Source: Hymenobacter sp. YC55 (lineage in GTDB: Bacteria; Bacteroidota; Bacteroidia; Cytophagales; Hymenobacteraceae). Taken from it: a stretch of DNA of 64,000 nt. The stretch lies in NCBI RefSeq assembly GCF_029433095.1, contig NZ_JARNTX010000001.1:62001-126000 (forward strand), in the 5' to 3' direction. A model generated the notes under the pieces. The model did no database searches, had not been told where the DNA came from, and was given only the letters and a program-made list of their open reading frames with translations. The position numbers and the translations under genes are program-made. This document shows, piece by piece, positions 2,994 to 60,383 of the stretch; within the stretch, counting starts at the first letter, position 1; each line of letters begins with the position of its first letter.

Positions 2994-3428
2994 TTATTTC
3001 CGCTTCCGCGCGAAAAACTCCTGCATCAGCGCTCCACACTCCGCCGCCAGCACCCCCCGCACCAATTCTGCCTTCGGATGCAGCAGGTTGCCGTAGCGCC
3101 GAAACCCGACTTTCACTTCATCCGCCCCGTACACCACCCGCCGAATTTGGGCCCAGGCGGCAGCACCGGCGCACATCACGCAGGGCTCTACGGTTACGTA
3201 TAGCGTGCAATCAGCCAAGTACTTATTGCCGACGTGATTGGCGGCCGCCGTCAGAGCCAGCATTTCGGCATGAGCCGTTACGTCGCGCAGCCGCTCGGTT
3301 TGGTTGTAGCCCCGCGCAATAATCACTTTGTCCAGCACCACCACGGCCCCAATGGGAATCTCTTCTTCTGCAAAAGCATACCGCGCTTGCTTAAGCGCTT
3401 CGCGCATGTATTGCTCATGAGCAGACAT
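2994..3428 (-). CDS. tadA: tRNA-specific adenosine deaminase (A34 to inosine)
   Basis: A 144-residue zinc deaminase that converts wobble adenosine 34 of tRNA-Arg(ACG) to inosine. The catalytic HAE (His53, Glu55) and the zinc-binding PCVMC (Cys83, Cys86) are intact, and the C-terminal RRVVYGADEVKVGF region is typical of TadA. The start is set at ATG 3428 (MSAHEQYMREAL), where family similarity begins; the frame is open upstream but that extension runs into repeat DNA and looks non-coding. A nucleoside deaminase with another substrate is less likely given the length and motifs. Confidence 0.9.
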   Translation of the reverse strand: MSAHEQYMREALKQARYAFAEEEIPIGAVVVLDKVIIARGYNQTERLRDVTAHAEMLALTAAANHVGNKYLADCTLYVTVEPCVMCAGAAAWAQIRRVVYGADEVKVGFRRYGNLLHPKAELVRGVLAAECGALMQEFFARKRK

Positions 3429-3833
3429 AGAGTTGTGAGACAAGATAGTAGGTCCTTTATTTCGTAACCGTCCTGCTGCGCAGGTGGCACACCAAGCCAG
3501 GGATGGAACGAAGCCGAAGTATTTCGCGTGCTGACCGTGCTGAGGTTGTGATACTATTGTCATGCTGAGCGCAGCCGAAGCATCTCGCGTGCTGATGTTG
3601 CCATGCTATCTGATTTTACCACACTAGCGAGATGCTTCGGCTGCGCTCAGCATGACGGGCTGGTTGGAGTTTAGTTAGCATCCGAGAGGCTTTGTTGCCT
3701 CCTCAGCTTAATTCGCCACATGCTCAGTAGGGCGTTCTGGTTGGAGTTAGGAACGGCAGTACGGTCAGCACACTAGATGCTTCGGCATGCGGGTCCAAGA
3801 TGAAGAATGACGTCGTATGACGTTCTCAAAACC
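3429..3833. other. Gene-free spacer filled with palindromic repeats
   Basis: No convincing gene. The spacer holds a complete palindromic element (3559-3656), a decayed half-copy at about 3510-3530 (GAAGCCGAAGTATTTCGCGTG), and another fragment at about 3770-3790 (ACTAGATGCTTCGGCATGCG). It therefore looks like a site where this repeat has inserted or rearranged more than once. Confidence 0.7.
3559..3656. repeat. Dispersed palindromic element, copy A (30-bp perfect arms)
   Basis: The left arm 3559-3588 (GTCATGCTGAGCGCAGCC...) is the exact reverse complement of the right arm 3627-3656; the spacer is 38 nt. The same arms, with matched changes in both halves, recur at 30351-30437 and 60289-60383. 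It resembles a REP/BIME-type or other non-autonomous intergenic palindrome. Confidence 0.92.
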
Positions 3834-27000: not shown

Positions 27001-27032
27001 CACATTCTCCTAACACGTTGTCAGCACTTGTA

Positions 27033-27083
27033 GAAGCATCTCGCATGCCAACGTTCATTATTTGCACACCAGCGAGAAGCTTC
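27033..27083. repeat. Decayed palindromic element, copy D
   Basis: GAAGCATCTCGC at 27033-27044 faces GCGAGAAGCTTC at 27072-27083, one mismatch from a perfect inverted repeat. It matches the core of the dispersed palindrome found at 3559, 30351 and 60236. Confidence 0.65.
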
Positions 27084-27118
27084 CTTCGTCAGTACGACGC
27101 TCTTAGAAATACCACCTT

Positions 27119-30350: not shown

Positions 30351-30437
30351 GTCATGCTGAGCTTGCCGAAGCATCTCGAGGGTAGTAAATCTATTGATTA
30401 GCATACTAGCGAGATGCTTCGGCAAGCTCAGCATGAC
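30351..30437. repeat. Dispersed palindromic element, copy B, between nuoG and nuoH
   Basis: The 28-nt left arm 30351-30378 (GTCATGCTGAGCTTGCCG...) and right arm 30410-30437 are perfect complements with a 31-nt spacer. Compared with copy A, both arms changed together (CGCAGCC to TTGCC). It would fold into a long hairpin inside the nuo mRNA, 14 nt ahead of the nuoH start. Confidence 0.92.
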
Positions 30438-31469: not shown

Positions 31470-31588
31470 GTCATCCTGAGCATGTCGCGAATCAAGCGAG
31501 GTAAAAGCACCTTGTCACACTCGCGCCACATTGTTTATGAAACCTGAGGAATGCAGCGGTGATAGTATGCTTCGTTCCTCAGCATGAC
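31470..31588. repeat. Diverged palindromic element, copy E, between nuoF and nuoG
   Basis: The ends GTCATCCTGAG (31470-31480) and CTCAGCATGAC (31578-31588) are inverted with one mismatch and match the ends of copies A-C. The interior has lost most of the pairing (TGTCGCGAATCAAGCGAG...). It fills the whole 139-bp gap. Confidence 0.65.
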
Positions 31589-33558: not shown

Positions 33559-34827
33559 CTACGCGTCCAGCTCGCCAGCAATTACGTTCATCGACGACAA
33601 GGTCACGATGGCGTCGGAGAGGGTCTGGCCCACTACCATTTCTGTGTAAGCTTGGTAGTAGATAAAGCACGGACGGCGGAAGTGCAGGCGGTAGGGCGTG
33701 CGGCCTCCATCAGAAACCAGGTAGAAGCCCAACTCGCCATTGCCACCTTCCACGCTGTGATACACTTCACCAACTGGGGCGTCAATTTCGCCCATGATGA
33801 TCTTGAAGTGATAAATCAGCGCCTCCATGTTCTTGTACACGGCCTGCTTGGGAGGCAGGTAGAAGTGCGGCGCATCAGCGTGGTATGGGCCTTCGGGCAA
33901 GTTCTCTAAGGCCTGCTCGATAATGCGCAAGCTCTGCCAGATTTCCTCGTTGCGCACCATAAACCGGTCGTAGGTGTCGCCCTTGGTGCCTACCGGAATT
34001 TCGAAGTCGAAATCCTGGTAACTGGAGTAGGGGTTCATCACCCGCACGTCGTAGTCGACGCCGGCAGCGCGTAGGTTGGGGCCCGTGAAGCCGTAGTTGA
34101 GGGCGCGCTCGGCAGAAATACCGCCTACATCCACTACCCGATCCATGAAGATGCGGTTGCGGTTGAACATCTTCTCGAACTCGCGCATCACGGCCGGGAA
34201 CGACTTCAACCAAGCCCGTAGCTTCTGAATAGCTACCGGCGTAAAGTCGCGCTCCATACCGCCTACGCGGCCCATGTTGGTGGTCAGGCGGGCGCCGCTT
34301 ACCTCTTCGTAAATCTCATACACTTTCTCCCGCTCGTCCATCAGGTAGAGGAAGCCAGTGAAAGCGCCCGTGTCCACGCCCAAAATGCCATTGCAGATGA
34401 GGTGGTCGGTGATGCGGGCCAGTTCCATCAGAATCACGCGCATGTACTGCGCACGCTTCGGAACGGTCACGCCGAGCAGTTTCTCCACTGTCATGTGCCA
34501 ACCCATGTTGTTGATGGGCGACGAACAGTAGTTCATCCGGTCGGTGAGGGGAGTAATCTGGTAGAACGGCCGACGCTCCGCAATCTTCTCGAAAGCGCGG
34601 TGGATATAGCCGATGGTAGGCACCCCCGACACAATCCGCTCCCCGTCCATCTGCAGAATGTTCTGGAAGATGCCGTGGGTAGCAGGGTGGGTAGGCCCTA
34701 GGTTGAGCGTGGTTAGCTCTTGGTTGAAATCGTTAACAGTTGGGGCAAGCGGATGAAGATTGGGCCGTTGCTCTTCGGCCTCTTCAACAATCTTGCGGGT
34801 GCCTTCCAGCGTGTCGTTTACTGCCAT
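33559..34827 (-). CDS. nuoD: NADH-quinone oxidoreductase subunit D
   Basis: 422 residues, the 49-kDa hydrogenase-like subunit at the quinone site. Landmarks are LNLGPTHPATHGIFQNI, IGYIHRAFEKIAE, MNYCSSPINNMGWHMTVEKLLG, and the C-terminal SLSSMNVIAGELDA ending that is close to the family norm (DxVxGExDR). A roughly 30-residue N-terminal extension rich in Glu precedes the conserved part. It follows nuoC by 18 bp. Confidence 0.97.
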   Translation of the reverse strand: MAVNDTLEGTRKIVEEAEEQRPNLHPLAPTVNDFNQELTTLNLGPTHPATHGIFQNILQMDGERIVSGVPTIGYIHRAFEKIAERRPFYQITPLTDRMNYCSSPINNMGWHMTVEKLLGVTVPKRAQYMRVILMELARITDHLICNGILGVDTGAFTGFLYLMDEREKVYEIYEEVSGARLTTNMGRVGGMERDFTPVAIQKLRAWLKSFPAVMREFEKMFNRNRIFMDRVVDVGGISAERALNYGFTGPNLRAAGVDYDVRVMNPYSSYQDFDFEIPVGTKGDTYDRFMVRNEEIWQSLRIIEQALENLPEGPYHADAPHFYLPPKQAVYKNMEALIYHFKIIMGEIDAPVGEVYHSVEGGNGELGFYLVSDGGRTPYRLHFRRPCFIYYQAYTEMVVGQTLSDAIVTLSSMNVIAGELDA

Positions 34828-34845
34828 GATATAGGTATCCGGGGC

Positions 34846-35412: not shown

Positions 35413-35495
35413 TTAGCGGTAGAAGTGAGCACAGAAAGGCGAGGGTAAGCAAAGGATTGCAAGCGTCTCGCCTTTCTATGCGCAATGTCTGTGGT

Positions 35496-39737: not shown

Positions 39738-39810
39738 CGTGTATACATGATTATGGCATAGCAGACAGTATATATAGCGCTGTCTGCTATGCCATAATCA
39801 TGTATACACG
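39738..39810. repeat. 31-bp perfect inverted repeat with 11-nt loop
   Basis: Left arm 39738-39768 (CGTGTATACATGATTATGGC...) and right arm 39780-39810 are exact complements; the loop is TATATATAGCG. It lies between the convergent GH43 gene and the glycosyltransferase-like gene. There is no T-run after either arm, so a simple intrinsic terminator is doubtful. Confidence 0.93.
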
Positions 39811-44555: not shown

Positions 44556-44622
44556 ATCTGCACGAAATAGCCCCTGGCTCGGACGAAACATGCATCCGGG
44601 CCAGGGGCTATTTCGTGCAGAT
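44556..44622. terminator. Long hairpin with 23-bp stem
   Basis: Left arm 44556-44578 (ATCTGCACGAAATAGCCCC...) and right arm 44600-44622 are perfect complements around a 21-nt loop that can itself form CGGA/TCCG. It starts 14 nt after the stop of the secreted-protein gene, so it is probably its terminator, though no U-tract is present. Confidence 0.75.
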
Positions 44623-60235: not shown

Positions 60236-60383
60236 GTCATGCTGAGCGAAGTCGAAGCATCTCGCGTGCTGATGTTACCAAACTAGCTGTCATGCTGAGC
60301 GGAGTCGAAGCATCTCGCTCGCATCGTTGAATTTAGTGCCACAACTTCAGCACGCGAGATGCTTCGACTCCGCTCAGCATGAC
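60236..60383. repeat. Dispersed palindromic element, copies C1, C2 and facing half
   Basis: Two direct copies of the left half, GTCATGCTGAGCGAAG... (60236-60265) and GTCATGCTGAGCGGAG... (60289-60318), face one right half (60354-60383). C2 and the right half are a perfect 30-bp inverted repeat. C1 extends the pairing further in (GCGTGCTGA with TCAGCACGC). The layout suggests a tandem duplication within one element. Confidence 0.92.

Follow-up and report, generated by a model that had tools for sequence, protein, structure and literature searches.

Dispersed repeat units of about 30 nt with a CGTC-like foot, found in Hymenobacter sp. YC55 and its relatives, are probably REP-type elements; their head-to-head pairs resemble REPINs, and the units are arranged into mosaic clusters of two to four. 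The repeat family is real and nearly confined to Hymenobacter. A genome-wide search with the core of the repeat, suggested in an earlier note on this DNA, returned 129 exact copies in forward and 116 in reverse orientation from the 7.59-Mb YC55 genome (18 contigs) and none with the reversed pattern as a control. The element is present outside the window, that is, the whole 64-kb stretch of DNA analysed here.

The core was found in 108 of 120 Hymenobacter genomes, at 0 to 245 copies per genome (218 in the genome G118). Among 395 genomes sampled from the phylum, five contain it, four of them Hymenobacter and the other carrying a single copy, which corresponds to 1 of 391 genomes outside Hymenobacter. 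The full 30-mer was located at no fewer than 80 loci in named genomes, all of those listed being Hymenobacter, in a search that may lack the records closest to the YC55 genome. Rfam gave no match in the window. Titles and opening parts of abstracts among the matches listed, outside subscription journals, held no published account of Hymenobacter repeats, and the listed papers containing the repeat's sequence strings were unrelated texts.

Architecture of the units and clusters

The unit, an imperfect hairpin in our reading, follows the pattern (C/T)GTC-ATGCT-GAGC-(loop)-GA-AGCAT-CTCGC. Units were catalogued in 864 kb of the YC55 genome, comprising the window and 40 further 20-kb stretches, almost all of which were picked around listed copies, so unit densities in this sample are not genome averages. 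The sample contains 242 units, with 89 head-to-head pairs separated by gaps of 29–39 nt, 62 direct neighbours, and no tail-to-tail neighbours within 60 nt. These units fall into 91 clusters, arranged as +- (40), ++- (37), ++-- (7), +++- (5), ++ (1), and + (1), and the linkers between direct neighbours are mostly 22–23 nt. GTC begins 237 of the 242 units and is preceded by C in 114 and by T in 96 (210 of 242 in all). The tail is CTCGC in this genome and CTCTA in several relatives. The half-spacers include three recurrent kinds, GTGCTGAYGTTG, TAGTGTGGTAAAC, and TCGAMTCGTTG. Among ++- clusters with the same outer half, the inner pair is in the order 3-2 in 16 and 2-3 in 6, as if the spacer could be inverted. 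We read the loops as conforming to GC-(GNA or TT)-GY-C or as longer loops.

The stem consists of five canonical pairs with covariation, and the remainder requires G-A mismatches. In 578 units the first two pairs are A-T and T-A in 567 and 568, respectively, a regularity that detection by similarity to the consensus favours. Changes on both sides of the stem led to a Watson-Crick pair in 21 cells and to a mismatch in one, counts that include related copies and do not represent independent events; five unpaired control column pairs showed no both-side changes. The last stem pair is broken by a T-to-A change in 56 of the 578 units. A search by structure only also recovered stems ATTCC, ATCCT, ATACT, ATGCC, ATGTC, and ATGTT with their complements, whereas reversed sequence, the control, gave a single match. 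A third CGTC-like family, GTCATTCCGACGCAGGAGGAATCTG, whose stem is changed on both sides, was observed at five YC55 loci (L033, L039, L040, L190, and L205) and contributed nine units to the structure search. Calculated with nearest-neighbour energies, a single unit folds no better than shuffled sequence and dimers fold far better (z of -11.0 and -12.0 as DNA; -11.0 and -10.1 as RNA). The possibility of a gene-bearing element bounded by two units was considered for a 1.35-kb gap in L035 and rejected; the gap holds an ordinary long ORF of 416 residues, which we take to be proA.

Against mechanically called ORFs, one of the 91 cluster midpoints lies inside an ORF. Of co-directional spacers, 56 of 290 contain a cluster, as do 25 of 84 convergent and 2 of 81 divergent ones, and the difference between divergent and co-directional spacers is significant (p = 5 × 10−5). 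Located between genes that are mostly co-directional or convergent, the units would be transcribed as strong RNA hairpins. The earlier suggestion that the element is REP/BIME-like is supported by the unit itself, by its arrangement in head-to-head pairs and mosaic clusters, and by its scarcity in divergent (promoter-side) spacers.

Copies within the window

The window contains three intact pairs and at least two decayed copies. Searches with the core at up to two mismatches counted 19 matches against 6.25 expected and 17 against 5.07, and none of 100 shuffles reached either value. Five spacers had been reported to carry the element. Those with pairs starting at 3559, 30351, and 60289 hold intact copies, whereas those at 27033 and 31470 hold decayed copies only, an inverted-repeat search finding degenerate units and no arm pair of 12 nt or longer around these two positions. 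The same search reproduced the perfect arms of 28–30 bp described for three copies, with lengths of 30, 28, and 30 nt.

The first dimer is formed by units at 3559–3588 (plus strand) and 3627–3656 (minus strand), perfectly inverted over 30 nt around a 38-nt spacer (3589–3626); both loops are GCAGCC, whereas the orthologous dimer of G118 has GCAGCC in one arm and GGAGCC in the right arm. A decayed unit with a 34-nt loop lies to its left in direct orientation (3470–3527, plus strand), and a remnant half unit at 3752–3786 (minus strand) pairs at 80% with 3513–3547. A deaminase-like ORF (2994–3563), as called mechanically, takes its start codon, an ATG, from the head of the 3559 unit; its true start is probably further in. 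The second dimer, assigned by gene calls to the nuoG-nuoH spacer, has units with loop TTGCC at 30351–30379 (plus strand) and 30409–30437 (minus strand), the perfectly inverted arms spanning 28 nt (30351–30378 and 30410–30437); an unrelated palindrome occupies the same spacer in G118 and G116. At the third site, given earlier as 60236, the perfect 30-nt pair is at 60289–60318 (plus strand) and 60354–60383 (minus strand), with loop GGAGTC in both units. It is preceded by an extra intact unit in direct orientation (60236–60265, plus strand, loop GAAGTC), which ends 23 nt ahead of the pair. Thus YC55 has GAAGTC, GGAGTC, and GGAGTC here, whereas the aligned G118 spacer lacks the unit at 60289–60318 and has a plain dimer, a GCAGTC pair.

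The decayed dimer near 27033 consists of a left arm at 27014–27044 (plus strand, six mismatches) and a right arm at 27072–27098 (minus strand), and better preserved copies are found in the orthologous spacers of G112, G050, and G085. The dimer in the nuoF-nuoG spacer begins with the head GTCATCCTGAGC of a second family, B (31470–31481, plus strand), and ends with a decayed right arm at 31562–31588 (minus strand). Two strong near-palindromes outside the REP family were also seen. The one at 39738–39810 (31 matched) lies in a convergent spacer and its core is kept in G118; the one at 44556–44622 (25 matched) is weaker in G118, and G112 and G050 have octamer palindromes instead.

Matching between the arms of dimers

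The earlier note held that the arms differ between copies and that the opposite arm is changed to match. This is true of the three pairs in the window and of most pairs in relatives, but not of most pairs in YC55 itself. In the 864-kb sample, loops are identical in 18 of 89 head-to-head pairs, with 10.85 expected from random pairing (p = 0.015); the other 71 pairs have unequal loops, often of different length. Unmatched arms are common in the genome, with matching still above chance. The three matched pairs of the window are not typical of their own genome. Lenient detection gave 18 matches among 91 pairs. Loops match in 9 of 40 plain pairs (4.1 expected, p = 0.011) and in 9 of 49 pairs within larger clusters (7.1 expected, not significant). 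Stem deviations common to partner arms numbered zero in YC55, with 0.09 expected.

Identical loops were found in 26 of 37 pairs from eight relatives' genomes (15.1 expected), in 24 of 36 from G017 (8.2 expected), and in 6 of 13 from G065 (3.6 expected, p = 0.088; one pair about 130 bp apart left out); the loops of G001–G012, G017, and G065 are those of pairs among the matches listed. In nine named species, 25 of 38 non-seed pairs have identical loops against 6.5 expected, 9 of 18 species groups being kept and those with fewer than two non-seed dimers dropped. Stem deviations common to both arms in relatives amounted to 102 against 23, a contrast inflated by shuffling across species. Four stem changes are common to both arms in L129, and an 18-nt loop is common to both arms in L226. 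At two junctions, orthologous dimers differ by whole-dimer events, both arms having changed in concert. At the nuoG-nuoF junction, L172, L173, and L183 have TTGCC in both arms and L177 has CTGCC in both; at the junction beyond nuoH, L177 has the TTGCC pair and L183 the CTGCC pair. A short form, GTCATGC-TTCGGCAAGCTCA-GCATGAC, occurs in L174 and L179, as expected from a deletion between the ATGCT repeats inside a dimer.

Template switching homogenises the arms of inverted repeats and inverts their spacers, according to the accessible text of one study (PMC8604942), and it gives the best account of the arm data. The matched arms would come mainly from the copying of one arm onto the other by template switching in a foldback, rather than from selection for the pairing of every base of the long palindrome. 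Repeated arm copying, as proposed earlier, is thus supported in relatives and weakly so in YC55 (18 of 89 pairs against 10.85 expected). Arms made identical by foldback copying are shared with the published cases, which, in the portions available, concern yeast coding sequence and RNA hairpins and not REP dimers (PMC8604942; PMC8794818).

Palindromes of unrelated families at gene junctions

In the 30 best-aligned of 120 genomes (L160–L189), the nuoH-nuoG spacer contains palindromes of several unrelated families: CGTC-like in 8 (two of them deletion products), B in 3, AGCTGTTAGC in 8, AGTTGCC in 4, AGTGCTT in 3, another in 2, and none seen in 2. The palindrome score is at least 14 in 24 of the 30 and at least 11 in 26, with shuffle means of 4.6–7.3. 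On the nuoH-nuoG gene tree the family label needs 17 changes, where the least possible is 6 and the shuffled mean is 18.8; values as low occurred in 31 of 200 shuffles. L164 and L170 have flanking windows that are 92–99% identical and palindromes of different families. Beside the CGTC-like copies in L164, L165, and L167 stands TTTTGAGCTGTTAGCC, which is part of the AGCTGTTAGC palindrome, and the flanks in L174, L177, and L179 are similar. This points to an older palindrome that was either interrupted by an insertion or overwritten.

The junction at window position 34827/34846 is a 17–18 bp spacer without a palindrome in 28 of its 30 best-aligned genomes. In the other two and in 20 further genomes, chosen for split matches there, it is 90–122 bp long and contains palindromes from at least five families. 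Of the 20 chosen genomes, 19 score above all 20 shuffles. When syntenic junctions are compared among six genomes, 88 of 135 pairs of non-homologous spacers agree in having or lacking a palindrome, with 67.2 expected (p = 4 × 10−4, kinship ignored). Recombination through the flanking nuo genes was rejected as the source of the swaps, similarity being no higher near the junction at 200-bp resolution. Exclusion between families was likewise rejected, as the copy numbers of the CGTC-like and AGCTGTTAGC families are uncorrelated over 120 genomes (Spearman 0.006). Palindromes with units of 7–8 nt (AGCTGTT, AGTTGCC, AGTGCTT, TTAGAGC, TATTGAGTAG, and others) are seen at REP-dimer junctions in other species, both in L160–L189 (nuoH-nuoG) and in L250–L299 (orthologous to window positions 34828–34845 and 35413–35495). 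One genome has AGCTGTTAGC arrays with as many as 195 overlapping matches to the pattern.

The samples were selected and the genomes share kinship, so we propose ‘hairpin slots’ tentatively, as a possibility somewhat short of even. Certain gene junctions may keep a long palindrome throughout the genus while its sequence is repeatedly swapped between unrelated families. The slot would be conserved either because a transcript hairpin is needed or because palindromes insert into, or overwrite, palindromes.

Y1 transposase genes

The RAYT system envisaged in the earlier note was not borne out in YC55. A profile search of the genome, which that note had called for, gave one Y1_Tnp match, and this protein is of the IS200 type (78.6 bits against a cut-off of 55; RAYT score 44 against a cut-off of 80). 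The 3.3 kb around its gene contain no unit, the nearest one found being about 6 kb away, and a RAYT as resident mover was rejected for this genome. Y1 matches occur in 83 of 120 Hymenobacter genomes, 17 of the 37 Y1-less genomes being inferred by subtraction from the Y1 matches listed. Ten candidate RAYT proteins were scored; all of them fit RAYT better than IS200, and six exceed the NCBIfam RAYT cut-off.

One palindrome lies on both sides of the gene at 7 of 18 Y1 loci of relatives (L236, L238, L240, L241, L242, L245, and L247); it belongs to another family and is GTAG-footed in four (L240, L241, L245, and L247). These RAYT-like or Y1 loci are likely ordinary REPtrons. The CGTC-like family stands on both sides of the gene at none of the 18 loci and lies about 0.9 kb from it at two (L244, as a variant, and L247). 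Neither YC55 nor these 18 loci contain a RAYT gene flanked by CGTC-like units, and the check on Y1 genes gave no transposase gene so flanked and no candidate mover enzyme for these units. A family B unit (GTCATCCTGAGC) starts 26 bp past a RAYT-like ORF at a contig end (L246:1832-1890), which leaves room for a Y1 link of family B. For the CGTC-like family, the comparisons yielded no cleanly bordered empty site. Its copies may have spread by an activity other than a resident RAYT, whether one since lost, one acting in trans, or one of another kind.

Alternative explanations

The dimers might be classical REPINs, moved by a RAYT as in Pseudomonas that was later lost from YC55. Their architecture equals that of REPINs in the accessible part of the original description (PMC3116915), and the genus does have RAYTs. 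Genomes with a Y1_Tnp match also hold more core copies (median 14 against 5 without, p = 0.004), which fits some Y1 role and speaks against our own reading. However, the palindromes that flank Y1 genes on both sides belong to another family, the CGTC-like family approaches 2 of 18 loci at a distance and family B one (L246), and 7 of 45 genomes with at least 20 cores, G118 with its 218 among them, have no Y1 match. We regard this explanation as quite unlikely. A DDE-type MITE family, moved in trans by an insertion sequence, would account for long inverted ends, lack of coding capacity, high copy number, and intergenic insertion. The inverted part is, however, a repeated short unit that also occurs singly and in direct orientation (62 direct neighbours), which terminal repeats of a MITE do not explain, and this origin appears highly improbable.

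Selection for a long mRNA or cruciform hairpin, acting against mismatched arms, bears on the matching itself. It is in keeping with the predicted folding of the dimers far beyond shuffles (z from -10.1 to -12.0) and with junctions that remain occupied by palindromes, and compensation could explain the joint changes of both arms at orthologous dimers. Yet the 71 YC55 pairs with unequal loops are at odds with selection acting solely on the long fold, and they weaken the fold as the cause of matched arms. About ten invariant stem positions would pair anyway, and rare identical loops of 16–18 nt and four common stem changes (L226 and L129) arise more easily by copying. Selection is on balance rather unlikely, and arm copying in dimers of REP-type units is the reading we retain.

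Relation to known repeats

In the BIMEs of Escherichia coli, units that alternate in orientation or follow one another directly form mosaics, joined by defined linkers. The Hymenobacter clusters share this arrangement, but their sequence is unrelated and the YC55 genome is without a RAYT. They also lack the GT[AG]G foot of REPtrons, having (C/T)GTC instead. With REPINs (Bertels and Rainey, 2011; PMC3116915) they share, on the accessible text, an inverted REP pair with a spacer predicted to form a single hairpin; unlike REPINs with a RAYT, they have no adjoining RAYT and their foot is CGTC, not GTAG.

The explanation as a whole, which we consider likely, makes the CGTC-tagged REPs (Di Nocera et al., 2013) the best match for this family among known repeats, from which it differs in its tail and its mosaic clusters. 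On the portion of that paper available (PMC3733652), both have the CGTC/TGTC foot at one unit end, a stem starting A-T then T-A, head-to-head dimers including homo- and heterodimers, and intergenic locations between co-directional or convergent genes; for neither was a dedicated transposase found. Head-to-head dimers predominate in Hymenobacter too (89 pairs against 62 direct neighbours). The tail is CTCG or CTCT in Hymenobacter and CCA in most CGTC-tagged REPs, a feature given there for ‘most’ and not strictly defining. CGTC-tagged REPs have a stem of 8–9 bp and a loop of 4–5; the Hymenobacter unit has five canonical pairs, beyond which a longer stem would need G-A mismatches. Grouping into clusters of two to four units, with 22–23 nt linkers, is also unlike CGTC-tagged REPs as described there, and the accessible text does not name Hymenobacter.

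What moves CGTC-tagged REPs has been an open question since 2013 (PMC3733652). Hymenobacter, with copy numbers ranging from 0 to 245 per genome, makes it testable, and the RAYTs of the genus, which have repeats of their own, supply an internal control. The arm data point to copying, rather than selection, as a way in which palindromes can be kept perfect. If the hairpin slots hold, they would reveal a transcript feature whose position and shape are conserved while its sequence is not, and ordinary comparative methods would miss such features.
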